The notes beneath the pieces are model-generated. The model was not told the origin of the DNA and did not search any database. It worked only from the letters and a program-made list of their open reading frames with translations. The translations under genes were made by a program, and so were the position numbers. Positions 9,905-64,000 of a stretch of 64,000 nt of DNA are shown here, in pieces. The stretch's first letter is position 1; each line of letters begins with the position of its first letter. The DNA is from Saccharomycopsis phalli (Eukaryota; Ascomycota; Saccharomycetes; Ascoideales; Saccharomycopsidaceae): positions 806,001 to 870,000 of the forward strand of contig CP073217.1 in the NCBI GenBank assembly GCA_020342235.1. The letters are read 5' to 3'.

Positions 9905-10155
9905 AGTTGCTTCGAAAAACTCCTTCTATGGAGCTCCTTCTATGGAGCTCCTTCTATAGAGCTCCTTATATAGAGTTCCTTCTATAGAGCTTCTGATTTA
10001 CGTACTCCTTCTTTACGTGCTCCTTCTTTACGTACTCCTTCTTTACGTACTCCTTCTTTACGTACTCCTTCTTTACGTACTCCTTCTTTACGTACTCCTT
10101 CTTTACGTACTCCTTCTTTACGTACTCCTTCTTTACGTACTCCTTCTTTACGCAT
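9905..10155. repeat. 15-bp minisatellite TTTACGTACTCCTTC
   Basis: From about 9985 to 10152 there are about eleven near-perfect head-to-tail copies of TTTACGTACTCCTTC. They are preceded by four copies of a related unit, TCCTTCTATGGAGC (9928-9985). It lies about 100 bp past the CDC50-family stop. Open frames on both strands here are only translated repeat. Confidence 0.95.
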
Positions 10156-11160
10156 TATATTTCTCATACATCAGTTTATCAATTATTCAGCCTCGCCAAA
10201 ACTCAGCCTCATTAACTATGAGGTTCACCACATATGGCTATGTCGAGGATTGTGCTTATATGCAGGAGCCACGTTCTTTCTAGGTAGTCAATTATCAATC
10301 GCTTTAATATAATTGGGGTAATGAGATTATTCATATTCAGCTATATTGTCTCCGGAAGCACATCAAATGTACATTGATTTGGAAAAACAAAGGCAGTTGA
10401 AGAAAGTTTATCCGCTCGTAGCTATTAGAAATAAAAATGTGCTATTTTGTTGGCGAGGATATTTGACAAGCAGTCGTCCTTGTTTAGGTCATGACGTCAC
10501 GTATGGGAGCAATTGGCAGGCGTATATTGAGAACCAGTGCACTGCAGCGAATGCGATAGTTTGCAGTGTATTTCAGCTTATCCTTTTTATTATCAACCGG
10601 TAATTTACCTTGGCGATGATTTGCTTCTTTTCCTCGGGTAGTTCAAAGGAAGCAAGCAGATGGATTGTGTATTTGCCAATGGCCGAGTGATTATTTACAG
10701 ATGCCAGACATTTATACCAAGACAATGTTGCAGGCAATTTATCAACAATTGTAATTGGTAATTTGCAGTTGGTGGTTTGCAGTTGGTGGTTTGCAGTTGG
10801 TAGTTTTAATTGGTGATTCTAATTGGTAGTTTTAATTGGTGATTTTAATTGGTAGTTTTAATTGGTAGTCTTGCCATGTTTTGCCGAGTACAACCCTAGG
10901 TATGCCTCCAAATGACACAACTCTGATTATCTTACCATCAATTTCAATTGCACTAAAAATCAATCTCTTCAATTTCAATTGCACTGTAAATCAGTCTCGT
11001 CAATTTCATTTGCACTATAAATCTGTTATGGTAGCCTCGTCTTTTGGCTTATCCCATTGCAATATACAGTGCTGGAAATGACTAGCATATTAAAAATATT
11101 AAAAATACGATTCGTGCGATATAACCATAACAGAAATACACTATATTTGATAAATCTGCC
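10156..11160. other. Intergenic with LINE-tail scrap and possible coding relic
   Basis: 10343-10362 matches the reversed LINE tail motif (AGCTATATTGTCTCCGGAA). A minus-strand frame from about 10760 to 10570 is open, with a protein-like core (WYKCLASVNNHSAIGKYTIH) and the segment LASFELPEEKKQIIAK. I cannot assign it. 10775-10870 is a TTTAATTGGTAG repeat. 10945-11030 has repeats of CAATTTCAATTGCACT. Confidence 0.4.
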
Positions 11161-16999: not shown

Positions 17000-17450
17000 G
17001 TGAGATGGTTCCATCATACATTACCTACGATGTCCAGAGCTCTTAGAAGCTCGAATTCTATCGCGCATTGATGAAATACTAGATTCCACTCATGGCATAG
17101 GCAATACGCTTGGAAAAGTGTTTGCCAATCAGTCCACAAACTCCTTGAGGTTTACCAGAACGTGTTGCAATATGATTCCTCCAACACATGATGAGATTCA
17201 GCGGTCACATTCGACAACAAGAGTGACCAGGCTTCTTACACAATCAATACAAGCACGAAGTACCGACAATACGACTACTCCCATTGAAGTTTTTAATCCC
17301 AAGCAACCAAGTGAGGGTTGACAAAGGGTTTTCTTCAACAGCAATGCTGCCTCATGATGTTCCTGAGTGAAAATATATCTGTCGAATAACCGTATTGCCG
17401 GAGACAATATATAGCTAAATACAAAAATAAATATTATTATTATTATTACA
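17000..17450 (+). mobile_element. LINE 3' fragment with (ATT)n tail
   Basis: Matches the minus-strand LINE at 61.6-62.1 kb over its whole length. Shared blocks: ATGTCCAGAGCTCTTAGAA, GTTTGCCAATCAGTCCACAA, CATTGAAGTTTTTAATCCCA, and CGGAGACAATATATAGC before an (ATT)n tail. It encodes only debris of the ORF2 C-terminus. The stretch from the mannosyltransferase stop to 17000, and 17451-17886, shows no gene; 17760-17886 is homologous to the 3' flank of the protease-like gene at 60.3 kb. Confidence 0.85.
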
Positions 17451-17886
17451 ACTACCCTTGTTATGTAAAATGGTACTGCTGGTTAGAGACCCTGATATTA
17501 CATGCACGCAATTGAGAGTAAAGCCTTGGCTATGGGCGATCATAAACTGTGTAAGCATTTATACATACAAAGAAGGAAGCATTGGTGCCTTACTCATAAA
17601 AATCATCATAATAGCGAGTAGATCGGATCTACCCGGTTACAGTGTTGTATATTTGTGTTCAATGGCATAGGAAATGTGGCTTGGATAATTATCAAAGAGT
17701 AATCTTAGAAATTTGAGCTTTATATCCGAATGATTTAAGGTAGGTATGGACTTTATTACAATACGATATATATTGATACTACGAGAACAGATTGAATCAT
17801 TTGACAAATTCTGCATTTTTTAAATTTTCAAACCTCTTTACCAGAATGAGGTTAGAAATATACCTATCAGATATTTATCATCTCGC

Positions 17887-19089
17887 TCAAGCATCTTTCC
17901 CAGTACCTTTAATACTACCAATAACTGGAGTGACAATATTAGTTGGTGTGGTGCTTTCTGCTATAGCTGCCTTTGCTAATCCAATCCGAGGAGTTTCATT
18001 GTCATAATAGACATATGCAGCTTTCAAAAATGGTACGCCTAGAACAATATCTTCAGTCTGTCCAAAGGTGATCGCAAACTTACACAAATTGTTACCATTA
18101 GGAACACTGTTAAGCATCATCATCTCAGGCAGAACAGTAAAACTGCGATCATTGATGTGAAAGGTCAAGTCTCCAATGCCGCTCCCGTCACAGTCACTAA
18201 AAGTGTTTCCGCCATCTGTAGTTACTTCAAAATACTGTTTGAGGCTCTCAGGTAAAACAATCATATTGGATCCAGTATTAATAGGAACTAAAGCTGGGGC
18301 AATAAGTTCTTCAAATAATCGATCACCACTAATACCAGACAACATTAAACCTAATTGGTCATTTTTGGTTATGAAAGCAGGAAACATTGACAAAGCCCCT
18401 GTGAATCGGTTTTTGTCTACTCCACCAAAGACAATCTGTCCATTATCTTTACCACTGACCAGGTTCATGTGAATTCCATACTCTTGACGCTTTATATATT
18501 TTGATGCTTCGAGAATCTCTACTATTCCTGGTTTTGAAATAGTTTTGCTTTTCGGACCCAAGCCCATAATAGCATATGGATAGCCACTTGCCCAGGCCAA
18601 ACCAAATCGATAATCTGATAATTTAGCCAGACCAAGACCAATATCGTCCTTATAATAGCGTCCACTTGCTTCAGAATAGTCAAAATAGGTTTTATCAAAC
18701 CTGTTGGCTATCGATACTTCTCCATTAGGCTCATCTATCTTATAGATATAATTCGCCTCTGAGTACCTTTTGAAAAATCTCTTACTGACTTTAAATTTTG
18801 TCGGGAGCACTTTATGGTCAACCGTATCTTTGGATTGAGCGAACCATGTCAAACTTGATCCAGTGTCACAAAGTGCATTTAGGGTTTGATCACCAACTTT
18901 GAGAGTTACTTGCGGAAAGTTATATCTGTTATCAAAATTAGTGATAACATAACCGGGCTTTTCATCAGTTGATTTACCTGCCTCGTTTTCGTCTCCAGGA
19001 GCTCGCTTTTCAAATAAACTGTCTGGAGAGCCCAATGTCGCGGAGAAAGCAGGACTCAAGATAAGGAATAATAATACTAACAATTGCAT
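17887..19089 (-). CDS. Secreted aspartyl-protease-like protein, second catalytic Asp replaced
   Basis: 400 residues, pepsin-fold (A1) family, related to yeast yapsins and Candida SAPs. Signal peptide MQLLVLLFLILSPAFSATLG, then a short propeptide ending at a Kex2-type Lys28-Arg29. The first active-site motif is intact (DTGSS, Asp75). In the second lobe the expected DTG/DSG reads NTGSN, with Asn271 in place of Asp. The residues around it (VLPESLKQYF) and the C-terminal PRIGLAKA are conserved, so the fold is probably kept. Without the second Asp no proteolysis is expected, so it may be a binding protein or a decaying copy. No GPI signal at the end (IGSIKGTGKDA). Two relatives lie at 60.3 and 63.4 kb. 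Confidence 0.88.
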   Translation of the reverse strand: MQLLVLLFLILSPAFSATLGSPDSLFEKRAPGDENEAGKSTDEKPGYVITNFDNRYNFPQVTLKVGDQTLNALCDTGSSLTWFAQSKDTVDHKVLPTKFKVSKRFFKRYSEANYIYKIDEPNGEVSIANRFDKTYFDYSEASGRYYKDDIGLGLAKLSDYRFGLAWASGYPYAIMGLGPKSKTISKPGIVEILEASKYIKRQEYGIHMNLVSGKDNGQIVFGGVDKNRFTGALSMFPAFITKNDQLGLMLSGISGDRLFEELIAPALVPINTGSNMIVLPESLKQYFEVTTDGGNTFSDCDGSGIGDLTFHINDRSFTVLPEMMMLNSVPNGNNLCKFAITFGQTEDIVLGVPFLKAAYVYYDNETPRIGLAKAAIAESTTPTNIVTPVIGSIKGTGKDA

Positions 19090-19395
19090 TTGATACTGTT
19101 ACTGCTGGAAAATAATTGTATTTATGTCATTTATTCTGGGCACTAAAAGGCTTGGATAATTTTGCGCCTCATACATGTTTGGATATGGTGCCGTAAGATG
19201 CATGGTGCTGTAAATTCGAAATTTTGGAATCCAGAAAACATCTCATGCAATAAAATTTGATCTCCATGAAACATTGAATACTATACTTAGAATCCATAAA
19301 ATATCCGATGTCATAATACTTGTGATCCCATAAAATGCACAGTATCTGTAATACAAGGCTATGCCCCTGATCCGCTTGTATCAAGATTAGATCTG

Positions 19396-19937
19396 TCTCA
19401 GGTCCGCTCGAGTTTGTTCCAAACTACCATGATAGATGGAAGCACAAGAGTCAGAGAAGAGACTACACCAAGTACGTCAAGTCATAATTCCTAAGAGTCC
19501 TCTTATCCATCATATGATACAGGCAACAATCCCGCCATAACCCAGATATTAGGACGATTGATGCAGTCGCCTGAATACTTGAAAAACGAGCGGATTACTC
19601 ACTAAAAGAAAAACGACTCGGAGACGACCCAACACTGAGATAAAACGAGACGCCTCTGTAAGGAGCTTGCATGCCTCAAGGCAATCCTCAGTTTTACACT
19701 ACAGCTACTTAGTGGAAATAGCCACACAGACGACTCGTTGCTCAAACTATTTAGCAATACAACCGCTCATATTGAAGTTTTTAATCCCAAGACACTGGAT
19801 GTGGGCTGGGAATGGGATTTCTTTAACAGCTATGCTGCCCCAGGATGTTCCTGAGTGGAAGTACATTTGTCGAACAACCGTAATGCCGGAGACAATATAT
19901 AACTAACTACAAAAATAAATATTATTATTATAAGTGA
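19396..19937 (+). mobile_element. LINE fragment, internally deleted, with 3' tail
   Basis: The left part (CCGCTCGAGTTTGTTCCAAA and the following ACTACCATGAT) matches the minus-strand LINE at 62.78-62.82 kb. The right part (CATTGAAGTTTTTAATCCCA, CAGGATGTTCCTGAGTGG, CGGAGACAATATATAAC, AATAAATATTATTATTAT) is the common LINE 3' end. It is inserted in the upstream region shared by the protease-like genes: homology with the 59.6 kb upstream region stops at CTGAGACAGATCT, exactly at the left boundary. Confidence 0.75.
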
Positions 19938-20149
19938 GATGGTGCGTTTGTCAAGAGACTTGTGTTGGTGTAAATGGATTAGTGTAGCTTTAGGAAGAGA
20001 TGTGAATCTCATTTTATTACAGTTGAAGAGATTTGAGAGATGGGAATTGAGAGGTGGTTAGTATATTGTATAGATGGGGATGCAAAGGTATGGTATGTTG
20101 CATGAAATGTGATTAGCAAGTGTATAGTATAGATGTGGTGCATGTCAGT

Positions 20150-20370
20150 TTGATGTCAGTTTGATATTCAGATGTCTTTAGATTTGTCTGGATTTTTCGT
20201 TAGATTTGTCTTTGGATTTTTCGTTAGATTTGTCTTTGGATTTGTCTTTAGACTTGTCTTTAGATTATGTCTTTTGACTTGTCTTTAAATTTGTCGTTAG
20301 ACTTATCTTCGACTTATCGTAGACTCATCTTTGACTCATCTTTGACTCATCTTTGACTCATCTTACACTC
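20150..20370. repeat. Degenerate GATTTGTCTTTG / GACTCATCTTT repeat
   Basis: Runs of TTAGATTTGTCTTTGGATTT change into TTTGACTCATC units. The SINE at 20372 is inserted in this array, and its target-site duplication ATCTTACACTCA is a variant of the unit. Confidence 0.8.
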
Positions 20371-20371
20371 A

Positions 20372-20833
20372 AGGGGCAGGAGGTTTGGCCGAATGGAAAA
20401 CACCTCATGCCTTATGGAGGGCGCATCATGAGGTAGTTACCGGGTTCGAGCCCCACCAAACCGCCCCAATACTCAAGAAAGTCTCCAGAAAGAGCACACT
20501 ACGCCTCAGAAGGGCAATACAAGGAAGTCTCGCAAACGAGCAATGAACGACCCCGACGAGTCGTGCGCCCATCGTCACGAGATTCAGCGGCCGGATAGCG
20601 CCGGCATTTAGCCGAAGGATGGCCAGGCTTCTCGCATAACCAATAGCCAGTCACGTTAAACCACTAACAACACTGCTCCCATTGAAGTTTTTCAGCCCAT
20701 ATAACCGTTTAGGGTTATAAAGGGTTTTCTTCAATAGAATGCTGCCTCAGGATGTTCCTGAGTGAAAATATATCTGTCGAATCACCGTGTTTCCGGAGAC
20801 AATATATAGCTAAATACAGAACTAAATATACTT
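20372..20833 (+). mobile_element. Full-length tRNA-headed SINE, copy 1
   Basis: A 462-bp element flanked by a perfect 12-bp target-site duplication ATCTTACACTCA (20360-20371 and 20834-20845). The head has a Pol III A box TGGCCGAATGG (20386-20396) and a B box GGTTCGAGCC (20443-20452), spaced as in a tRNA with a long variable arm (Leu/Ser type). Inverted pairs GGTTTGG/CCAAACC and ACCTCATG/CATGAGGT give it a folded structure. From about GAGATTCAGCGG (20579) to the end it aligns with the local LINE 3' end, with CATTGAAGTTTTT, CAGGATGTTCCTGAGTG and CGGAGACAATATATAGC. It ends in AACTAAATATACTT, not in the (ATT)n tail of the LINE. Copy 2 at 46949-47416 looks identical by eye. Confidence 0.9.
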
Positions 20834-20977
20834 ATCTTACACTCATCTTAGGCTCATCTTAATACACGATAAACAAGCACCTGTGTACATGTCTTGCAAC
20901 ATCTCATAATTAGGTAGTCTCATGTGTACACCTCATCTCACGGCACGTTTCTCTACAATTACAACACACATATATTC

Positions 20978-36795: not shown

Positions 36796-37084
36796 ATCCA
36801 CTTGATACAATACACTGCCAATGTGTGCGTTTAAACTCTGATACACAATTAGTGTATACTACAATACTGTGTCATATGTTCGTTAGTCTACCTTAATAAT
36901 ATACATGCCATGTATCTTGGACTGAAGTCAGTCGTATACTACGATTCCTGTCGTGTCTCATTATTGTCAGGATCTTTGACGTGTGTTGTATGTTCGTAGG
37001 TTGTCATCTTGTTGTCCATGTCTCCAGAATGCTAGTCATGGCGTCTTTGTATCCACTTTCGGTAGCTCCTCGTTGGGTCTTTAG

Positions 37085-37257
37085 GTATGTCATTCAGCCT
37101 TGCTCAAGTATCCATTCAGCCTTGCTCAAGTATCCATTCAGCCTTGCTCAAGTATCCATTCAGCCTTGCTCAAGTATCCATTCAGCCTTGCTCAAGTATC
37201 CATCCAGCCTTGCTCAAGTATCCATCCAGCCTTGCTCAAGTATCCATCCAGCCTTCT
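37085..37257. repeat. 22-bp minisatellite abutting EAF1 3' end
   Basis: Eight near-perfect units of CCTTGCTCAAGTATCCATTC (plus AG). The last unit touches the EAF1 stop codon at 37258, so the array lies in its 3' UTR. Confidence 0.95.
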
Positions 37258-40139
37258 TCATTCACGCCTTTGGCTTGGACCCTTCAGGTCAAATCCCTCA
37301 TTCACGCCCTTGGTTTGGTTCCGCGGCTGCAACTGCTGCTGCTGCTGTTGCTGCTGCTGTCGTTGCAACACTTGCAACATAAGATGGTTCTTCTGTTGGG
37401 GCGTCAATGAGTTCAAATTTATACGGAGTCCTTGGAGACCAGGCACGGTTCCTGTCGGCTGAGGACTGACAGAAGCACTGGTTTTCCCCATGAGCGATTG
37501 CGAAATCATGTTCTTGCTCATGTTAATAGTCTTGCCAATGGGCTGCTTGGCATTAAACTGGGAAACCGGCCCGTTGATGGTGGCAGATGGAGCTGGAGGC
37601 GCCTGGACGGGCTTTGGAGGGTTTGGAGCCGGAGCTGCTGCGCCGTTGCGTTGTCTGATCTGGTTCTGGATGCTGACAAAGTGCCTGGCTGCGGCCCGAG
37701 TGACCTCTTCGTTGGTCCAGGTGGGGTTCTGTGCCTGGATCTTGTTGATGAACGCCGACACCTGCATGTGGATCGGGCTGCGGGTCGACTCCGGCAACAC
37801 TGCGCCGGGTTTGTTGTCTGTATCGGCGTTTTTCTGCGCCTGGTTCTTCTGGTTCAACTGCATGAGCTTTTGGAGCTGTGCCAGAACATACTGCTGGGTG
37901 TTTGCCGGCACCTGGCCGACGACGCTCTCGGAACTCGCTCCACTCGTAGACTTGCTCTCATCGTCGCTCTTGGACTCGGTCTTGCGCCGCGCCATGTTGT
38001 GCACGTACACGTCACGTGCGGCACGTTCGCGCTCCTGCTTCATCTGCGAAAGCTCGCCAGGAGAGAGGATTTTCAGTTTTTCCTCGGCAGACAATTGTTG
38101 TCGTTTGAATGACGATGGATTGCTGGGCTTGGGCGCGTTCTCCCGCTTCTTCATTGTCTTGCGCATCGCCTCAAACATACTTGCCCACCGGAGCCGAGTG
38201 TGGCCCCGCTGGATCGATTCCTTGCCGACTCCTAGTGGTGAGATCCGTCGCTTGGTCGTGGTCTGCGCCTTGTGAGCCGCTTCAAGCCACACCTGCGCCG
38301 CCTGGGCGTTTGGTCCGCGCATATCCGAGAACTGGAACTTCTCAGTGAGCTGGATGTACCGTTCAAAACACTGCCACGGGGTACGTCGCTCGATGTTCGA
38401 GGTATAGCTGCGGGTGGCCTTCGAGCCAAGATGTGCCGAGATCACGTTCCAGTTGTACGAGAACTCGTCGGCGTACTTGATCAAAAGCGCGTCGTCCTGC
38501 GGAAGCCAGATCGTCGGGGTGCGGAGATCAATGAACTTCAACGGCGGAGGAGGCGGCGGCCGGATCGGATGGTGCCGCCGGCTGTTTCCCTCGGCGAAAA
38601 GCCCCTTTTTCCCGTCGCTAATCCGCTCGGGCTCCGGGTGCTTCTTCTCCTTCTGCACCACTTTGTACCACCCCTGGTCGTCTTCAAACGGAAGCAAGAG
38701 CTTCGACACCGCCACTATCGGAGTCTCATTGTACTCTGTGCCCGGTACCTTGCTCCCGTCAAACGCACTGTACCCGGGCAAACTCTCCACCAACGACCGG
38801 TCAAGCCCGCCCAACGAGTCCCCATAGAGATAGAGCTTGAACGGAAAGTTGTCAAACTCCTTCCCAGCACCCACCTCGGTCTCCGTGAGAATCTCTTGCG
38901 GCGTCTTGTGCAACACAATCTCCTGGGGAGTGTCCGTTTGGAGAAGTGCCACATCCACAGTCTCAGGCACATCGTCCTTGGCATCAAGATCGAATTTCGA
39001 GTCCTCAAACACCTCCAATCCTTGCATCTCCTCGCTTTCCCGCTTCTCCTCAATGTACGCCTGGTTCCGCGCCTCAATCTCCTCGTCACTCAAAAATCGC
39101 ACCTCCTTGCGACTCACACACACAGCCTTTCCATGCTTGTGATACTCCATCACCTCGTTCGCCAAGAACAAGCACATGGAAAGCTGGAACTTCCGGCCCT
39201 CTTTAAAATCAGTCGACATCCAGCACGCCTCCTGGAGCAAACTGTCCCAGTGAGTCACAGCCAGCGACTGTGTCTTGAACGGATCAACATACCGCCGCGG
39301 CTGCTTCAAACACCACTTGCCATGCTTCTGCAACTCCTCGATTCGCGAGTGCACCACCAGTATCTTCCCTTCAAGGAACAGACTCTCGAAAATACCAGTC
39401 GTAAGCACCTTGTGCGAGTTCGCTAGAAGCTTCACCATCTGGAGACTCTTGGAATAGTAAAATAGCTTCGCCAACGGCATCGTCTTGATCACCTTCGTCG
39501 GTAAACTCTCCTTCAATAATATATAGATCGAGTCCTCTTTGGTCATCCCATGCTCTGGTTTGGCCAATTTCTTCTGCTTCTCAATCAACTGGTTATTCTG
39601 GTTGATCTTCGCCAATTCAAACGACGACTCCTGGATCGGTACCGGCTTGCTCACTTTGCGCAATTTCTTGTCTTGCGTACTGCTACTCTGCTCCATCTTT
39701 CTCTTGCCAGACACCCCAGATTCAGTCGTAACTTCAAAGCCCCCATTTTCCAGTGCCTTCGACTCAGTGTCCACAATTTCTGCTTGCTTCGGCGCCTGGC
39801 TCGGCTCTTGTAACGCGGTTTCTAGTCCCGCATTGCTAGCGTCCACCCCGCCATTTAACGTCACTTTCGTGTCCTCTATTAATCTATTTTCGTTAAATGC
39901 ACCTTTCAGAATGTCATTGCTGTTTAAAAAGTCTATTATGTGCTTCGAAAGGTCGTCTATTTGCGCTTCTTTGATTGACGTGTATGGAAAATTACTAAGA
40001 AGATATAGCTGCGTCAACTTCTTTTTGCGCTGTCTCACAATCTCTTGGATCGCTGACTTTCGGCGATCAATCGACTGTTGCTTCAAACGATCCTATTGGT
40101 TAATATTGACCAAGCTTATGTTGCCAGTGTACATACCAT
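37258..40139 (-). CDS. EAF1: NuA4 histone acetyltransferase scaffold Eaf1 (Vid21), intron after the start codon
   Basis: 945 residues from two exons: 40139-40137 (only the ATG) and 40092-37258. Exon 2 has no ATG of its own at the 5' end: an in-frame TAG precedes it. Splicing a 44-nt intron joins ATG to GATCGTTTG, giving MDRLKQQSIDRRKSA. Domains: an HSA domain near 260-335 (RRYVDPFKTQSLAVTHWDSL), which binds actin and Arp4, and a SANT/Myb domain near 525-590 (TIWLPQDDALLIKYADEFSY). A Gln run near 915 closes the protein. Eaf1 is the platform subunit of NuA4, which acetylates H4 and H2A. Yeast Eaf1 has 982 residues. Confidence 0.93.
40093..40136 (-). other. EAF1 intron, 44 nt, directly after ATG
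   Basis: Donor GTATGT follows the ATG immediately. The acceptor is ACCAATAG, and the branch candidate ATTAAC has its last base seven bases from the intron end. It has the same length as the UTP30 intron. Without it the downstream frame has no ATG start. Confidence 0.85.
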
Positions 40140-46499: not shown

Positions 46500-46850
46500 T
46501 CTCTGTTGCCAGAGCTCTTGGTCTGAATTCGATTGTAATTGATAATACTAGACTCCTCTGTGTAATGCACACTTGTAGCAATCGTCAATCGGACCATAGG
46601 TATAGTTTTACCAGACGGTGTGGGGATATGATCTCCACATGGCAAGATCGTCAAACTTGGTAAGGGCAATACCTTATCTAGCCTCAACTACTAGTATTGA
46701 TAAAGCTGGGAAATTAAAGTTTAATCCTAGGCTACGATTTGAAAGCCGGCCAAGGTTTCAACAGCCTCGGGATGTTCCTGAGTGAATGTATACTTGGCGA
46801 AAAACTGTGCCGGAAGCAGTGTATGACTAAAATTAAATATTATAGTGAAA
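46500..46850 (+). mobile_element. Old, diverged LINE 3' fragment
   Basis: Weak but ordered similarity to the 17.0 kb copy: CCAGAGCTCTTGGTCTGAAT, GATAATACTAGACTCC, CAGCCTCGGGATGTTCCTGA and GTGCCGGAAGCAGTGTATGA, then a short AT tail. More diverged than the other copies, so older. Confidence 0.6.
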
Positions 46851-46948
46851 CAAATTAGTGTGAATTTTATTTGTTTAGACAATTTTCATTGAGCATTCTG
46901 ACAATGCCGTGCGACTCAGGTGGATGGTTCAAGATTTGAGGGTGAGGT

Positions 46949-47416
46949 TAAGTTAAGTATATTTAGTTCTGTATTTAGCTATATATTGTCTCCGGAAACA
47001 CGGTGATTCGACAGATATATTTTCACTCAGGAACATCCTGAGGCAGCATTCTATTGAAGAAAACCCTTTATAACCCTAAACGGTTATATGGGCTGAAAAA
47101 CTTCAATGGGAGCAGTGTTGTTAGTGGTTTAACGTGACTGGCTATTGGTTATGCGAGAAGCCTGGCCATCCTTCGGCTAAATGCCGGCGCTATCCGGCCG
47201 CTGAATCTCGTGACGATGGGCGCACGACTCGTCGGGGTCGTTCATTGCTCGTTTGCGAGACTTCCTTGTATTGCCCTTCTGAGGCGTAGTGTGCTCTTTC
47301 TGGAGACTTTCTTGAGTATTGGGGCGGTTTGGTGGGGCTCGAACCCGGTAACTACCTCATGATGCGCCCTCCATAAGGCATGAGGTGTTTTCCATTCGGC
47401 CAAACCTCCTGCCCCC
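46949..47416 (-). mobile_element. Full-length tRNA-headed SINE, copy 2
   Basis: A 468-bp element with its head at the right end. Perfect 11-bp target-site duplication GAGGGTGAGGT (46938-46948 and 47417-47427). A box at 47402-47392 and B box at 47345-47336 are the same as in copy 1. By eye the whole body is identical to copy 1 (20372-20833); the only differences are one base at the 5' end and an extra AACTTA-type tail. Different target sites and identical bodies point to recent, separate insertions. Confidence 0.9.
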
Positions 47417-47427
47417 GAGGGTGAGGT

Positions 47428-52333: not shown

Positions 52334-53580
52334 GTAGGATGCCAATGTATGCTAAATGGAGATGTAGAAAGAGGGGGGTATGCAGTGTGGGTGATGGAGG
52401 ATGGTAAAGACGGTAAGTTGTGTTGATATGGAGTAGATATGTATAGTGTGCGACTATTCAATCATTCAATTTTAAAGGAACAACGAAGTATATAGGGTTT
52501 ATAATAAGAGCTTCATAGACATTCACTATCCCTATATTAATAAACTCTGACAAACAACTGATGGAGGATAGTAAAGATGGCAAGTTGTGTTTATTGAAGT
52601 AGGACAGTAAGATGGATGTTGTGTTAAAGTAGATCCGTATAGTGTACGAGTGATGTAAGACAGTAAGATGGATGTTGTGTTAAAGTAGATCCGTATAACA
52701 AATGATAGGAATGTGAAAAAGATGGATAAAATTTTAGACAAATACGATAAAAGTACAACAGTCCAGTTACAAGTATGAGCAATGTGGAAAAGTTGGACGA
52801 GGCATGTTTGACGGAGGTGCGATGGAGATGAAACTAGAGTTTACATGTACGACAGAGTACACTGTACAAGGCATGATAATACCAGGTACGTTGAGAAAGG
52901 CTACCTAGCAAGAGTGAAATTTTGCAGAGTGAAATTCCCAGAAGCATGGGGACAGTTGGTGATAGTGGCAGTAATAGACAGGAGACGACAGAGGTGTGTG
53001 AATGAGGAAATAGCGATAATCAGCCGGAGACAATAGGCGAGAGTGGAAACAATTTGTGGCGAATGAATACATAAACAAGATGAATAGAGTTGTGAGACAA
53101 TGGACATGAGTAGAGACAATAGGCACGAGTAGAGACAATAGGCACGAGTATAAACGAGCGGTGGAGGAAGCAGTTTGTGAATACTGAGGATAGCCGGAAC
53201 AATAGAGAGCAACAACCGGTGGAAAACAATGGAAGCAACAGCAACAGCCACGACAATTGAAGCAAAAGCCAAAAACAATAGGAGCAAAAGCCAAAACAAT
53301 TGAAGTAAAAGCCAAAAACAATAGGAGCAAAGGCCAAAACAATAGGAGCAAAAGCCAAAACAATAGGAACAAAAGCCCAAAATTATGGGAGCAATTGCAA
53401 GAGCCAAGAGTGACGGGTGGGAGAAATGGCAAGCCGAGAGCACTGGCTGGTACCAGGGGATTAGTAATGACAGAGTCGATGCGTCAGTGTCTAGGATAAG
53501 ATTATGAAACTGGCAGTTTGAGTGAGTACGGCGAGGCAATAATCTAGTATAGCATGGAAAATTAGCTACAGGAGAATGCA
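52334..53580. repeat. Repeat-rich intergenic region after PRE4
   Basis: 52600-52695 has two copies of a 48-bp unit containing GACAGTAAGATGGATGTTGT. 53095-53150 has three units of GTAGAGACAATAGGCACGA. 53240-53395 has eight units of GGAGCAAAAGCCAAAACAAT. Minus-strand frames of up to 226 codons through this stretch are translated repeat (FCSYCFG type), with no family feature. Confidence 0.8.
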
Positions 53581-55243: not shown

Positions 55244-56805
55244 GTATGGATGGTGAGATGGGAAAGGTGGGCGAGATGGGCAATGTGAAGATAAGATGGA
55301 CAAGATGAAGTCAATATGAAGTCAAGATAACGAGGATAAGATAACGAGGATAAGATAATGAAGATAAGATAATGAAGACAAGATAATAAAGACAAGATAA
55401 TAAAGATAAGATAATAAAGACAAGATAATAAAGATAAGATAATAAAGCCAAGACAAGACAAGATAATAAAGACACGATAATAAGACAAGATTCGTATAAA
55501 AGTCAAGATGCAGATAATGAAAAACTTGGTGCAATAATAAAATAACCAGTTCAAGATTTCAACTATCCAAATCAAGTCACCAAGGACTGACACTAGCCAT
55601 TCAAGATACTCAGCTTGTATACTGTATGCTGGAATCAAGTACAACCGACCACTACTTATATTGAGGTATGCTGGAATTTCATACTACGATATTCTCACTG
55701 GTTCACGCACAATACAATGCTGGAATGCTTACAGTCTGAAATAAACAAACCCATCTATTCGATGGAAATTACAACTTAATCGCACCACATTGCGAACCAA
55801 GAACTGCCTCCACGCCAGTCAAGCAAAATGCTTACAATTCAATTCTTTTGTACTAGTTAAAATCCAAAGCTTCTCCGCTTACCATTGAACAGGATCCAGG
55901 TACTTTAATAGGATTAAAGTCGGCAAAATGTTTCATGACCAGAGGTATAGAAAATCCAGGGATGTATCCAATACATTAGAATTGATGAAATTTTCATTTA
56001 GCAATGGATATCAATCCATTAGAGTTGATGAAATTCTCATTTAACAATGGATATCAACCCATTAGAGTTGATGAAATTTTCGTTCAACAATGGATATCAA
56101 TCCATTGGAGTTGATGAAATTTTCATTTAGTTTCATGAAAATACAAATTGTTGATGTCATGCGTCACAGAAACATTCACTATGTAATATTTGGATATCTG
56201 CAGTGGCAACTGCTCTATTTAGAAATACATCTGTAAAGATATTTGATGCTGAGATTCTGAATCCGATGCCGAGCTGCTGAATACCGTGCTACGTAATTGC
56301 TGCATACCATGCTACGCAAATGCTGCATATCATGCTAAGCAAATGCTGAATACCGTGCTAAGCAAGTAGAGAAACATGCTAACAAATACGGGATACCCTG
56401 CCAATGGCCAAGCTATTGTGTATTGAAGCAAGGGTATTATGTGGGACGAATGGTTATAACTGGGTAGAAGATATTGTTATGAGTTGTACATCCAATGGAT
56501 CAATCTATTACGTTGAAATCCAATGGACCAATCTATTACGTTGAAATCCAATGGACCAATCTATTACGTTTAAATCCAATGAACCAATCTACTACGTTCA
56601 CATCCAATGAACCAATCTACTACGTTCACATCCAATGAACCAATCTATTACATTCTACGTCCGATGTCGGCACCCATGTTACATGCATAATCTGGTTGAT
56701 ATTTAGTATAAACAGTTGCTCAACTAGCTTGTAGTTATTACCCATACACAACTCTCAGATTGTCACTAGCAAATACAACTCCCAGATTGTCACTAGCAGC
56801 CCAGC
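55244..56805. repeat. 1.56-kb convergent spacer filled with minisatellites
   Basis: 55310-55490: units of AGATAATAAAGACA. 55965-56140: three to four 45-bp units containing TTGATGAAATTTTCATTTAG and AATGGATATCAATCCATTAG. 56270-56375: CGTGCTAAGCAAATGCTGAA type units. 56485-56660: six 28-bp units containing AATCCAATGGACCAATCTAT. No gene recognised. Confidence 0.85.
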
Positions 56806-58654: not shown

Positions 58655-59904
58655 AAAGTTAATTTTTGAAAAAGGCTTTACTAGCGGACAAAAGAAATAA
58701 ATGAAAAAGTGACTGGGTGGTTTTCTTCACACTGTAAAGATCTACCATAACTAATCTTGATGAACATACATGCGATAGTACTGTGAACATGCGTGGCATA
58801 TTTCTGTATGTGAAATTTAATCAGATCGCATAGCAGGACGGAAGCTTGCGCCGCGTTTTTCAAATCAGCATCAGATTAAGCTATACAGTATTTTTTACTC
58901 CTTTGCGATTCAACAGCCCAATGAAATAGCCAACTAGTCAATAATAACCAGCTAAGATCGTTCGACTTTACTGTCTTATTAGCCAGATATTGTCCTTATA
59001 CTTTGAGTATCAAGCTCCTATACTCTAACTTCGATTATCGTGGCCGTACGGTTCTAGTACACAGCCTACCACAATACTATTTGTTTCATTGGTACTTAGT
59101 ATCACAGTTACTAATTACTGATCGAACGCATGATCGATTATGCACTGATTAATTATGTTTGGTTTAACCACAACACAAGCCTACACTACTTTCCTTGATA
59201 TCATCAAGAACAGAGACCCATGCTGTAGCTCCAATGGTACACCCAAGATGTATACAAAGGCCGAAATTGATACGTTACACTCCTTGGTTCAACATTGATA
59301 TATCAAAAATTTTAGACAGTGGGGTGTCAAAAAGAAATACTTGACATCTGAAGTACCGTGAGTTATCTCCCTCGGTTGATGTAGGGTTGGCAAAGGAAAT
59401 TAAATCACAAAAGGCTGAGTATAAAAGTTTGTGTGACTAATAGAGATTCCACCAAGCTAAATTGTTGCTGTAACAAACTAACTTCCAGTTCATCTTACGA
59501 AGACTAAAATGCGGATACTTGAAGTTGTGTGATGGTAAGAACTAAACAGGCTTCTATGAGTCGTTCTCAAAACATCTCAATCACTGCAACTGAAAATAGA
59601 GGTTTCAATCTGAGACAGATCTACTCTTGATTCAACCCTATCAGGAGTACAATCATGTACTTTAGATATTGGATATTTTATAGATTTATAAACGTTATAG
59701 CATTAGATGTTTTATGGGTGCAAATGTTCTAACATTGAATGTTTTATGGATTCTAAGTATAGTATTCAATGTTTCATGGATTCCAAATTTTATTATATGG
59801 GATGTTTTCTGGATTCTTAATTTTCGAATTTACGGCACCATCCATCTTACGGCACCATCCATCTTACGGTACCATCCATCTTACGGCACCATCCATATCC
59901 AAAC
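58655..59904. other. Intergenic; right part is the shared upstream region of the protease family
   Basis: 58655-59600 shows no gene. From about 59605 (CTGAGACAGATCT) to 59904 it is homologous to the upstream region of the gene at 17.9 kb and, for its last part, of the one at 63.4 kb: TTCTGGATTC, TTTTCGAATTTACGGCACC and ATCTTACGGCACCAT. The CATCTTACGGCACCATC unit is locally repeated four times (59836-59895). Confidence 0.65.
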
Positions 59905-60246
59905 TGTCGTGGTTAACAACCACGGCAGAATAGGTCTAGTATTCAAGGAGGAGTTCGGAGTAGCTTACCGGACTCAGCCACAGAATACAGTAGCGCGTCC
60001 GTCGATCAATGGTAACCACCATCTGATTAAAGGACAACAACCTCTTAGGAGGATCGGCGTTCTCTATAAGAAGGCCGACATTACGCTACAAACATTAACG
60101 ATCACAAGACCAATTCAGCTGGATATCTATATCTAGCACAACCCATTCCGGTTATCCAAATCCTAAAGGAACAAAACAAACAATTAAGTAGTTTATAGTT
60201 TGCTGTAATACTATGTCTAATCAGGATACACCTATAAACTACGACA
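59905..60246 (+). mobile_element. Solo LTR of an LTR retrotransposon (fossil)
   Basis: 342 bp, starting TGTCGT and ending ACGACA (matching inverted ends), flanked by a perfect 5-bp target duplication CAAAC. It has a TATA-like region in its middle and no internal coding part. It resembles the LTR at 62426-62773 along its length, with clear divergence. The family (Ty1/copia or Ty3-like) cannot be told from an LTR alone. It is inserted in the promoter of the protease-like gene at 60.3 kb. Confidence 0.85.
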
Positions 60247-60341
60247 CAAACATGTATGTGGCACAAAATTATCCAATAAGCCTCTTGGCGCCCAAAATAA
60301 ATGACATATATACTATCATTTTCCAGCAAAAACAATATCGA

Positions 60342-61545
60342 ATGCAATTGTTAGTATTATTATTCCTTGTCTTGAGTCCTGCTTTCTCCGCGACATTGGG
60401 CTCTCCTGACAGTTTATTTGAAAAACGAGCTCCTGGAGACAAAAAAAAAGGCAGGTAAATCAACTGATAAAAGTCCCGGTTATCTCATCGATAATTTTGA
60501 TAACCGACACAATCTTCCGTATACAAGTATCAAAGTTGGTGATCAAACTCTAAATGTACTTTACAGCACGGGATCAGGTGTGACATGGTTCCCTACACTG
60601 AGCTCCATGAAAAAGACTAAACCGGACACAGCAATCTTCAATCTCGATAAGAAATATTTGAAAGAGTATCCAGTCACAAAGTTCATCTACAATACAAAGA
60701 AGTCTAAAGCAAAAGTTATCAGTAACTCAGGGTTTAGCCAACTCTATTTGGACGGTTCCATTGTATACGGACTGCATTATTCCAATAATATAGTTTTTGC
60801 TCTGGCTAAATTGCCAGATGCTCCATTTGGTCTCGCCTCAAGAACTGATTATCCATTTGCTATTATGGGCTTGGGTCCACAAGACTCCTCCGTTTCACAA
60901 CCTGGAATAGTGCAGATGCTCCAAACATCAAAATATATAAATCGTCAAGAGTACGGGATTCACATGAACCTGGTCAGTGGTAAGGATAATGGACAGATTG
61001 TCTTTGGTGGAGTAGACACGAACCGATTCACAGGGCCTTTGACAATGTTTCCTGCTTCCAGAAACCCAAGTGGACGTTTGAATGCATCCTTGTCTGGCAT
61101 AGGCGGTAAACTTTTCAATAAATTATATAGTACCCCAGTTGCAGCTACTATTGATTCGGGTGCTAATTCGATTGTTTTACCCAAGAGGTTACAAAAGTAT
61201 TTTCAAGTAACTATAGTGAACGGGAACACTTATAGTGCGTGTGACGGGAGTGGCATTGGAGATTTAGACTTTTACTTTAATACAAGCTTTTATACTGTTC
61301 TGTCTGAAATGATGAAGCTTGAGTCATATGTTAAACATGAAGGGCAATGTATGTTTGCACTCGCCTTTAAGAATACGCCAGAAATAATTCTAGGCGTACC
61401 GTTTATGAAAGCTGCATATGTCTATTATGACAATGAAACTCCTCGGATTGGATTGGCAGAAGCAGTTAAAGCGGAAAGCACCACACCAACTAATATTGTC
61501 ACTCCAGTTATTGGTAGTATTAAAGGTACTGGGAAAGATGCTTGA
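60342..61545 (+). pseudogene. Aspartyl-protease-like gene with frameshift and lost first Asp
   Basis: Paralogue of the gene at 17.9 kb. The signal peptide frame runs from ATG 60342 (MQLLVLLFLVLSPAFSATLG) through the Kex2-type KR, then breaks in a run of nine A at 60441-60449: one extra base compared with the paralogue. The rest (from about 60450 to 61545) is fully open. The first catalytic motif reads STGSG where DTGSS is expected, while the second is intact (DSGAN). So this copy keeps the Asp that the 17.9 kb copy lost, and lacks the one it kept. Other parts (EYGIHMNLVSGKDNGQIVFG, PRIGLAEA) are well conserved. It may be a pseudogene, or be rescued by slippage on the A9 run; a sequencing error in the run is also possible. 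Confidence 0.8.
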
Positions 61546-61631
61546 GCGAAATGATAAATATCTGATTGGTATATTTCTAACCTCTTTCTGGTAAAGAGGT
61601 TTGTAAGTTTAATATATGCTAAATTTGTCAA

Positions 61632-63188
61632 ATAATAATAATAATAATAATAATATTTATTTTTGTATTTAGCTATATATTGTCTCCGGCATTACGGTTA
61701 TTCGACAGGTATATTTTCACTCAGGAACATCCTGAGGCAGCATTGCTGTTGAAGAAAACCCTTTGTCAACCCTCATTTGGTTGCTTGGGATTAAAAACTT
61801 CAATGGGACCAGTCGTATTGTCGGTACTTCGTGCTTGTATTGATTGTGTGAAAAGCCTGGTCACCTGTTTTATCGAGTGTGACCACTGAATCTCATCAAG
61901 TGTTGGAGGAATCATATTCCAACACGTTCTGGTAAAACTCAAGGAGTTTGTGGACTGATTGGCAAACACTTTTCAAAACGTATTGCGTATGCCATGAGTG
62001 GAATCTAGTATGTCATCAATGCGTGATAGAATTTGAGTTTCTAAGAGCTCTGGACATTGGAGGTCGTGTATGATGGAGGGGGAGTGAATCTCGCATCTTT
62101 TGCACTTTGAGCAGTATGGCACTGATTTTACGTGCATTCCTATAGTGGTTTGGAAGTGAGTCACAGGTAGAGGTGGCCATTTCCTGCCACTCTTTGGTAG
62201 CCGTTTCTGAGGCCATTTTCTTGAGCAACTGGATGCGAGACCGCTATAGATCTTGTATCGGTGGTGGGTCGTTTTCGAGTTGTTGTTCCTCTAGTACATA
62301 ATCTGCTCGATGTTCAAGTAAGCGGGTGACTGCATCAAAACGTTCTGATATCTGGGTTGTGGGGGCTGTTGCCTGTAACATTTCCTGGATAAGAAGGAGC
62401 TTGGGAATTGTGTTTCTTGTGTTTCTGTCGTGGTTGAGAACCACTGCAGAACAAGTTCACTAGTGCAACATCGGTGTCGGTAATATCTTTACCGACTCCC
62501 GGTTTTGATCAGACTAAAGTAATCCAACCAATGATGTTTTTGATAAGATATTATTGGAGGATAAAGATCTGATAAGAGATCCAGAATAGTCTATATAAGA
62601 AGGGCTTCCTTCTTATAGAAAACACACAATTCAACTGAACAGTTCAGCTAGATATTATATCTAGCAAAGCCCAATCCGGTTATCCAAATCCTAAAGGAAC
62701 AAAACAAATAATTAAGTAGTTTATAGTTCACATAATACTATGTCTATTTCAGGCGATACTATTAACTACGACAGTTTCCATTGATCGTGGTAGTTTGGAA
62801 CAAACTTGAGCGGACTGGGTTTTGGCGTGATGTATTCATGAACCATCTCATGGATTTCATTATTGCCAAGGACTTGAGTAGGATCGTTGGTGGTGGAATA
62901 CCACTTTCGATATAGATGATTGGGGTCCATCAATATTTAGCCGAGTGCTTCTATTTTGGAGAAAGTTACTAGTCCAATTGATTATCTCAGGTGGTGCGCC
63001 GACGGCCCTCATCTTTCTTAGTAGGATCGGGTGGCTTATGTTGTTGAAGGCACCTTCGATATCTACAAGGACTGCTCCGGAATGGTGGGAGTTGTCTATT
63101 AACTGCATGCTGTGCAGTATCATGAGTTCATTCAAACGGAGAACAGATCTCCGCTATCGGTGACTTACTTGTGGTGTTCAACCTCAAA
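61632..63188 (-). mobile_element. 5'-truncated LINE with nested solo LTR
   Basis: A non-LTR retrotransposon copy between two protease-family genes. Its (ATT)n tail is at 61632-61653, its 3' end at 61654-62000, and its ORF2 C-terminus with a Cys/His cluster (YCSKCKRCEIHS..HDLQC) at about 62040-62130. Reverse-transcriptase residues are at 62860-63135: AVLVDIEGAFNNISHPILLR (motif A) and FLQNRSTRLNIDG, like the Tad/I-type LINEs. Less sequence lies between these than a LINE needs, so it is also internally deleted. A solo LTR interrupts it at 62426-62773. It sits right after the shared 3' flank TTTGTCAAAT of the upstream gene. Confidence 0.85.
62426..62773 (+). mobile_element. Solo LTR nested in the LINE (fossil)
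   Basis: 348 bp, TGTCGT to ACGACA, with a perfect 5-bp duplication GTTTC (62421-62425 and 62774-62778). It contains CTATATAAGAAGG as a promoter-like element. No internal region remains. Because it splits the LINE, it inserted after the LINE did. Confidence 0.88.
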
Positions 63189-63405
63189 ATAATGTTTCAT
63201 GGATTCTAAGTATATTGAATGTTTCATAGATCCCAAATTTTATTGCATGAGATGTTTTCTGGATTCCAAATTTTCGAATTTACAGCACCATGCATCTTAC
63301 GGCACCATATTCAAACATGTATGAGGCGCGAAATTATCCAAGAAGCCTCATGATGCCCAGGAAAATGACATAAATACAATAATTTTCCAGCAGTAACAGT
63401 ATCAA

Positions 63406-64000
63406 ATGCAATTATTAGTATTATTATTCCTTGTCTTGAGTCCTGCTTTCTCTGCGACATTGGGCTCTCCTGACAGTTTATTTGAAAAACGAGCTCCGCA
63501 AGACAAAAAACCCGGTTATGTTATCACTAATTTTGATAACAGATTCAATTTTCCGCAAGTAACTCTCAAGGTTGGCAAGCAAACCCTAAATGCACTTTAC
63601 GACACCGGATCAAGTCTGACTTGGTTCCCTAGACTCGGTGCCATGATTAACCGTAAAGAGCTTAAGAATCAATTTAAAGTCGACGTGGAATATTTGAAAG
63701 AGTACCCAAAGACGAATTACATCTACAATCCAGAGAATCTTAAAGAACCAGGATTAGGAATCCCTGTGTTGCATGAAACCTATTTTGATGGTTCCAAAGT
63801 AAAAGCAACCTATCGTAAAAGTGATATAGTTCTTGGTCTGGCCATATTGCCATCCACTATATTTGGTTGGGCCTGGGTAAGTGACTATCCATATGCTATT
63901 ATGGGCTTGGGTCCGCAAAGCGAACCCCTATCGCAACCGGGAATAGTGCAGACGCTCCAAACATCAGGTTATATTAGTCGTCAAGAGTACGGGATTCACA
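63406..64000 (+). CDS. Aspartyl-protease-like gene, third copy, cut by window edge
   Basis: Open from ATG 63406 to the window end (198 codons). Signal peptide MQLLVLLFLVLSPAFSATLG and Kex2-type KR are the same as in the other two copies. The propeptide is shorter by several residues (APQDKKPGYVI). The first active-site motif is intact (DTGSS in NALYDTGSSLTWF). PYAIMGLGPQSEPLSQPGIV and RQEYGIH are shared with the paralogues. The second Asp lies outside the window, so activity cannot be judged. The upstream region (63190-63405) lacks the solo LTR that splits the promoter of the second copy, and shows the ancestral promoter. Confidence 0.85.
   Translation, partial: MQLLVLLFLVLSPAFSATLGSPDSLFEKRAPQDKKPGYVITNFDNRFNFPQVTLKVGKQTLNALYDTGSSLTWFPRLGAMINRKELKNQFKVDVEYLKEYPKTNYIYNPENLKEPGLGIPVLHETYFDGSKVKATYRKSDIVLGLAILPSTIFGWAWVSDYPYAIMGLGPQSEPLSQPGIVQTLQTSGYISRQEYGIH

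Follow-up and report, generated by a model that had tools for sequence, protein, structure and literature searches.

A young SINE family in the budding yeast Saccharomycopsis phalli, very probably mobilized by a resident LINE

Results

Two copies of a short retroelement in one window

The stretch of DNA analysed here, hereafter the window, comprises 64,000 nucleotides of the S. phalli genome (assembly GCA_020342235.1, contig CP073217.1, positions 806,001 to 870,000), has a G+C content of 46.9 %, and carries two copies of a short interspersed element, or SINE (Table 1). The glycogen phosphorylase encoded in the window marks the host as a budding yeast: its best named hits are from Saccharomycopsis crataegensis (78 %) and Ascoidea rubescens (74 %), and one further record reaches 91 %. 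Aligned in opposite orientation, the copies are 99 % complementary over 473 nt, with 450-bp bodies that are identical. The initial annotation had described a perfect 12-bp duplication around copy 1 and a second copy near 46949-47416 with an 11-bp duplication of its own, and both were recovered by our analysis. The element contains no long reading frame, the frames that touch it being either an internal one of 74 aa or derived from the flanks. Elsewhere in the window lie tandem arrays at 9960-10184 (15 bp), 37069-37304 (22 bp), 53222-53413 (about 21 bp) and 55969-56129 (43 bp).

Table 1. Coordinates of SINE-associated features in the window
Feature	Position	Strand	Remarks
Left target-site duplication, copy 1 (ATCTTACACTCA)	20360-20371	+	Exact 12-bp match with 20834-20845
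SINE copy 1	20373-20834	+	nt 1 to end of CTTA tail; boundaries common to 34 full-length copies
A box, RNA polymerase III type-2 internal promoter (TGGCCGAATGG)	20386-20396	+	SINE nt 14-24; candidate from pattern search
B box (GGTTCGAGCCC)	20443-20453	+	46 nt after A box; candidate from pattern search
LINE-like 3′ region	20580-20834	+	Related to 3′UTR of the LINE with 1124-aa ORF2
17-nt palindrome (CTCAGGATGTTCCTGAG)	20746-20762	+	Identical sequence in SINE and LINE; may form a stem-loop
CTTA tail repeat, one unit in copy 1	20831-20834	+	
Right target-site duplication, copy 1	20834-20845	+	Exact 12-bp match with 20360-20371
Copy 2 duplication, 3′-end side	46938-46948	-	Exact 11-bp match with 47417-47427
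SINE copy 2 (L017)	46949-47415	-	Antisense to copy 1
Copy 2 duplication, 5′-end side	47417-47427	-	Exact 11-bp match with 46938-46948

A dispersed family of near-identical copies

The genome assembly spans 14.15 Mb in eight contigs of 1.0-2.3 Mb. Whole-genome BLAST gave at least 44 matches, and the repeat of about 460 bp is present in at least 36 copies, about 95-100 % identical and distributed over all eight contigs; the count is a lower bound because only 40 of 321 BLAST candidates were scored. With four short BLAST rows left out, 40 places (L009-L048) were taken with flanks of approximately 1 kb. They comprise 34 full-length copies, two copies cut at the 5′ end (L042, which starts at nt 25, and L044, which starts at nt 65 and is 95 % identical) and four older copies with identities of 84 % (L045), 79 % (L046), 83 % (L047) and 76 % (L048). 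One full-length copy, L040, begins a single base later than the others. The dispersed, near-identical copies with distinct duplications that the initial annotation expected from a genome-wide search are therefore present in number.

Thirty of the 34 full-length copies have the same 450-bp body, without a single base difference. The deviating copies are L037, L040, L041 and L043, the last of which departs most (two substitutions and 14 gap positions). With L043 excluded, mean divergence over the 528 pairs formed by 33 copies is 0.053 %. There are about three substitution events across roughly 15 kb, which, with yeast mutation rates of a few 1e-10 per base per generation, by a rough estimate dates the burst of SINE insertion to within about 1e5 to 1e6 generations. 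Near-zero divergence among the copies also indicates that retroposition is probably ongoing. The proposal that this budding yeast harbours a young SINE family, originally made from two copies, accordingly stands on 36 dispersed ones.

A tRNA gene was detected by ARAGORN within 1 kb at just one of the 40 loci, and there is thus no sign of targeting to tRNA genes. At L021, the SINE copy (C1:530943-531411) interrupts a stop-free frame some 355 codons long, neither piece of which has a Pfam match; insertions may therefore inactivate genes.

Target duplications, flanks and empty sites

Target duplications with an effective length of at least 10, defined as the length minus three per mismatch, flank 33 of 36 loci, compared with 1 of 150 mismatched pairings of left and right ends. 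They measure about 10-15 bp and differ in sequence at each locus. Among the 36 loci, a clear duplication is absent at L025, L031 and L038, and the lengths at L040 and L041 are uncertain because these duplications sit in local repeats. Private duplications at 33 of 36 loci, taken with the near-zero divergence, bear out the recent retroposition suggested at the outset.

Near-perfect identity between copies could in principle reflect segmental duplication of a single-copy sequence, a possibility already raised when the element was first described. The flank comparison refutes it, and we assign it a negligible probability: no two of the 40 loci, copy 1 and copy 2 included, share flanks in the same register, which excludes segmental duplication, and the duplications vary among loci. 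Empty sites also exist. For three of the 40 loci (L012, L027 and L028), paralogous repeats in the same genome provide the uninterrupted sequence; the hosts of the insertions are LINE copies for L012 and L028 and another repeat for L027. In these insert-free paralogues the two flank matches overlap by 10-12 bp, or by 8 bp in one case, which is the signature of a single copy of the duplicated target. L027 has one further, less clean match adjoining another SINE locus, and a low-identity candidate for L029 (overlap 5) was left out of the count. A search for empty sites was among the checks that the initial annotation had proposed.

Between duplication and element, three copies (L028, L033 and L041) have 18-25 additional nt, most of them head sequence, which we interpret as template jumping at the 5′ end. 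The head duplications of these copies and the truncation of L042 break at about SINE nt 16-25, within or just past the A box, and L044 breaks at nt 65. The breakpoints at nt 16-25 could be explained if the reverse transcriptase stopped at a fixed point or if short fragments of SINE RNA were involved.

A promoter head of unproven origin

The pattern of an A box, a gap and a B box occurs exactly twice in the window, once in each SINE copy, whereas 100 shuffled sequences contained it 0.01 times on average and in no case twice. A box pair 13 nt from the 5′ end of the element resembles the arrangement in known SINEs. The description of the element as ‘tRNA-headed’, which stems from the initial annotation, holds only as far as these boxes, because no tRNA similarity was found with ARAGORN, Rfam or BLAST. 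ARAGORN reported no tRNA gene in the head, the Rfam tRNA model did not match it at E≤10, and at E≤5 the same model matched none of the older copies L043-L046 and L048. All 36 whole-genome BLAST matches of the head, in a search that skipped very common words, were SINE copies and none was a tRNA gene. Searching viral_contigs and genome_contigs with the head gave no match, a result that says little because neither is a collection of eukaryotes. Nor are the misses of ARAGORN and Rfam on the head proof, since one tRNA gene of the window was found by ARAGORN but not by Rfam, and another by Rfam but not by ARAGORN.

A tRNA parentage of the head was unsupported by four tests. The single local alignment made, with one tRNA gene of the window, gave a z of -0.2 relative to shuffles and was thus no better than these; the gene is an intron-bearing tRNA-Arg and not a Leu/Ser tRNA, which makes it a poor comparison. 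Judged from its sequence, and given the limited sensitivity of both tRNA-finding tools, the head is best described as a putative RNA polymerase III type-2 promoter of unproven origin. Its predicted fold is one long arm. Further downstream, five consecutive T (20688-20692) may terminate polymerase III transcripts prematurely.

A resident LINE with a related 3′ end

The 3′ half of the SINE resembles the 3′UTR of a LINE present in the same genome, which the initial annotation had not noticed and which is an addition to it. Starting at about SINE nt 248, identity is 81.5 % over 222 alignment columns, the match in the reference LINE copy L065 starting 36 nt past the ORF2 stop, and it is 93 % over the last 117 bp or so; in the alignment of SINE with LINE, similarity begins at about nt 208. 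A related 3′ end, that of L068, is closer to the SINE (85.8 % over 183 columns).

The LINE is approximately 5.07 kb long and has two ORFs. Five copies are 99.90-100 % identical to L065 over 5,069-5,074 bp; for a sixth the identity is 99.98 % over 4,696 bp, and for L076 it is 97.1 %. The 1124-codon frame of ORF2 is open in five copies, and in L065 it encodes a PF14529 endonuclease and a PF00078 reverse transcriptase domain. Target duplications of 13-14 bp, the same size as those of the SINE, are clear in four of the seven LINE copies checked; none was clear at L064, L074 and L076. The 5′ end of the LINE (L065:545) falls just a few bases ahead of the first ORF's ATG and is the same in L064, L071, L072 and L073, which leaves almost no 5′UTR.

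The endonuclease domain alone had no match in the PDB, and the reverse transcriptase matched R2 and L1 structures about equally. In a protein search, among the 8000 candidates scored, matches with PF14529 reached up to 354 bits and those with PF03372 but without PF14529 up to 60 bits. Based on Pfam assignments and these bit scores among the 8000 candidates, the LINE would be placed away from L1. A second LINE family (L066 and L067) has a 1152-aa ORF2 with both PF14529 and PF03372, and its 3′UTR is different, yet has ATT repeats at its end; the tails of L077 and L078 resemble those of this second family. Within the window, a diverged LINE-type tail (75 % identical) lies at 46763-46847, about 100 bp from SINE copy 2.

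The likeness of the 3′ halves invites the alternative that the element is a non-autonomous LINE derivative transcribed by RNA polymerase II, in which the 5′ part came from elsewhere and the A and B boxes are accidental. The unrecognizable tRNA character of the head would fit such a derivative, as would the internal T5 run, at which polymerase III transcripts could end. Against it, SINE nt 1-242 matched none of the 30 reverse-transcriptase loci that were fetched (BLAST, E≤1e-3), the box pair is present in both copies at a frequency far above expectation and close to the 5′ end, and the SINE lacks a poly(A) tail. We regard this alternative as improbable and favour a polymerase III-transcribed SINE.

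Tail repeats and annealing to the target

The SINE copies end in repeated CTTA, CTTAA or CTTAT units (absent from L041), and no copy has poly(A). The fetched LINE copies terminate in ATT repeats, so that the terminal simple repeat is not common to the two elements. Genome-wide, the CTTA form of the tail is found at 36 exact places, all of which are SINE copies by position, and at a 37th that carries one mismatch and reads AAATATTCTTA, whereas the ATT form is found at 159 places with up to one mismatch. No LINE with a CTTA tail, which would be a closer partner, was found among the exact CTTA places. Of the older SINE copies, L046 ends in ATT, L047 in ATT followed by ATTAA-like units, and L045 and L048 in CTTA; given this mixture, the end of the SINE seems to have switched at some time.

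At 30 of 32 insertion sites the target continues the tail repeat, by 1-4 bases in 29 cases and by 5 in one. The mean match is 2.19 bases, compared with 0.88 under a simulated null that also allows leftward extension, and none of 20,000 resamples was as high. L025, L031, L038 and L041 were excluded because no duplication could be assigned to them clearly or without ambiguity. For L018 and L023 the duplication was trimmed manually to its exact part, and L040 was included despite the position of its duplication in a local repeat. At 31 of 32 sites the duplication starts with A or T, partly because this base often coincides with a tail base. Such matches are what an RNA tail annealing to a nicked target would leave.

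Short length and direct repeats at both sides are also features of DNA transposons and MITEs. The structure of the ends refutes an origin of this kind, to which we give almost no credence: duplication length varies between 10 and about 15 bp, a constant end is paired with one made of a variable simple repeat, 5′ truncations are present, the ends are not inverted repeats, and the 3′ end is shared with a LINE.

The palindrome in the common 3′ region showed no covariation across 19 tails (RNAalifold found no pairs, and the helix had no double-sided changes and was no better than shuffles), so a stem-loop recognized by ORF2 is a guess made by analogy with the pairs described in PMC4176376.

Discussion

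Our data are consistent with a model in which a young SINE family is mobilized by a resident LINE of the stringent type, an explanation in which we have high confidence. RNA polymerase III would transcribe the SINE from its internal A and B boxes. The 3′ half of the transcript would mimic the 3′UTR of the LINE, and from this common sequence we infer that the LINE ORF2 protein takes the SINE RNA instead of its own. The partner LINE would thereby supply the machinery that the SINE is missing. ORF2, with its endonuclease and reverse transcriptase, would nick the target, the tail repeat would anneal to the nicked end through a few of its bases, and target-primed reverse transcription would then produce the cDNA and give rise to duplications of about 10-15 bp. 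Slippage during priming could generate tails that vary in length and unit, and template jumping at the 5′ end could account for the additional nucleotides in three copies. Several points weigh against this model: the head is not recognizable as a tRNA, the internal T5 run could stop polymerase III, the tail repeats of SINE and LINE differ, the common palindrome lacks covariation, three of the 36 SINE loci and three of the seven LINE copies have no clear duplication, and the identity of SINE and LINE in the common region is moderate, at 81.5 % in the youngest LINE copies.

A broader claim, towards which we lean by a small margin, is that the pair combines the first SINE described in the Saccharomycotina with a stringent-type LINE outside L1, that both are active now, and that the SINE has swapped ATT for CTTA, with the old copy L046 retaining ATT. 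If this were true, the 3′ repeat would be a primer-annealing site of a few nucleotides, drifting separately from the 3′UTR that ORF2 recognizes. The elements that are new here are the partner LINE, the differing tail repeat, the empty sites and the annealing of tail and target.

Fungal SINEs provide the closest comparisons, as far as the excerpted descriptions go, and those named in the available part of PMC5063351 belong to filamentous fungi. MgSINE of Magnaporthe grisea, a tRNA-derived element of 472 bp in ca. 100 copies (PMC5063351), is the same size as the SINE described here, but it has a filamentous host and is described as tRNA-derived, a character not found for the head here. The excerpts on AfuSINE2-1a of Aspergillus fumigatus describe a 3′ end like the 3′UTR of a resident LINE and a short simple-repeat terminus, as in S. 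phalli, and the duplications of the AfuSINE2 group (4-14 bp) can be likened to ours (PMC5063351). The reported heads of AfuSINE2 are tRNA-like, unlike the head here, and the copies of its LINE are mostly not intact (PMC5063351), whereas in S. phalli both partners are near-identical among copies and several ORF2 frames are open.

Pairs of LINEs and SINEs are on record for the CR1, Tad1 and RTE clades, according to the part of PMC4176376 available to us. In Tad1-clade pairs the 3′ tail is common to LINE and SINE, as here, and in the stringent pairs of fish and eel the SINE likewise has the 3′ tail of its LINE (PMC4176376). A palindrome in the common tail is a further likeness to the fish and eel pairs; the terminal repeat, which differs between SINE and LINE in S. 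phalli, sets our pair apart from them.

Among the LINEs of the Saccharomycotina, Ylli of Yarrowia lipolytica and Zorro of Candida albicans are the described counterparts of the S. phalli LINE in the sections consulted (PMC5014426, PMC7175516). Both are called L1-like there, whereas the LINE described here has an ORF2 with PF14529. Ylli has two ORFs like our LINE and an apurinic-type endonuclease, and it has poly(A) (PMC5014426), where our LINE ends in ATT repeats.

A described SINE of a budding yeast was not found among the literature matches listed, which consisted of titles and abstract openings and included few subscription journals. The nearest approach among those matches is the speculation that tRNA genes of Yarrowia were spread by LINEs (PMC5014426, in extract). 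In the portions of text available, the report of the Saccharomycopsis schoenii assembly (33.9 % G+C, six nuclear chromosomes) contains no SINE term (PMC13148404), the S. fibuligera genome paper mentions neither SINE nor non-LTR elements (PMC5106798), and a review covering the transposons of four model yeasts includes no SINE (PMC7175516).

A LINE/SINE pair would be a rare case in yeast, and a near-identical pair in a 14-Mb genome represents a small eukaryotic system. Such a system would allow tests of how the LINE enzyme chooses a parasite RNA, of the role of the 3′ repeat, and of how an RNA with a polymerase III promoter is diverted into retroposition.

Other traces of LINEs are visible in the window. 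The segments 17010-20000 and 59700-64000 are inverted relative to each other and 75-94 % similar, and they carry aspartyl protease genes (17887-19089 on the minus strand and 60607-61545 on the plus strand) that LINE 3′ ends adjoin; the protease family may have spread jointly with LINE debris. Across the genome there are 91 reverse-transcriptase matches, many of them in long open frames, and the genome seems retroelement-rich for a 14-Mb yeast.
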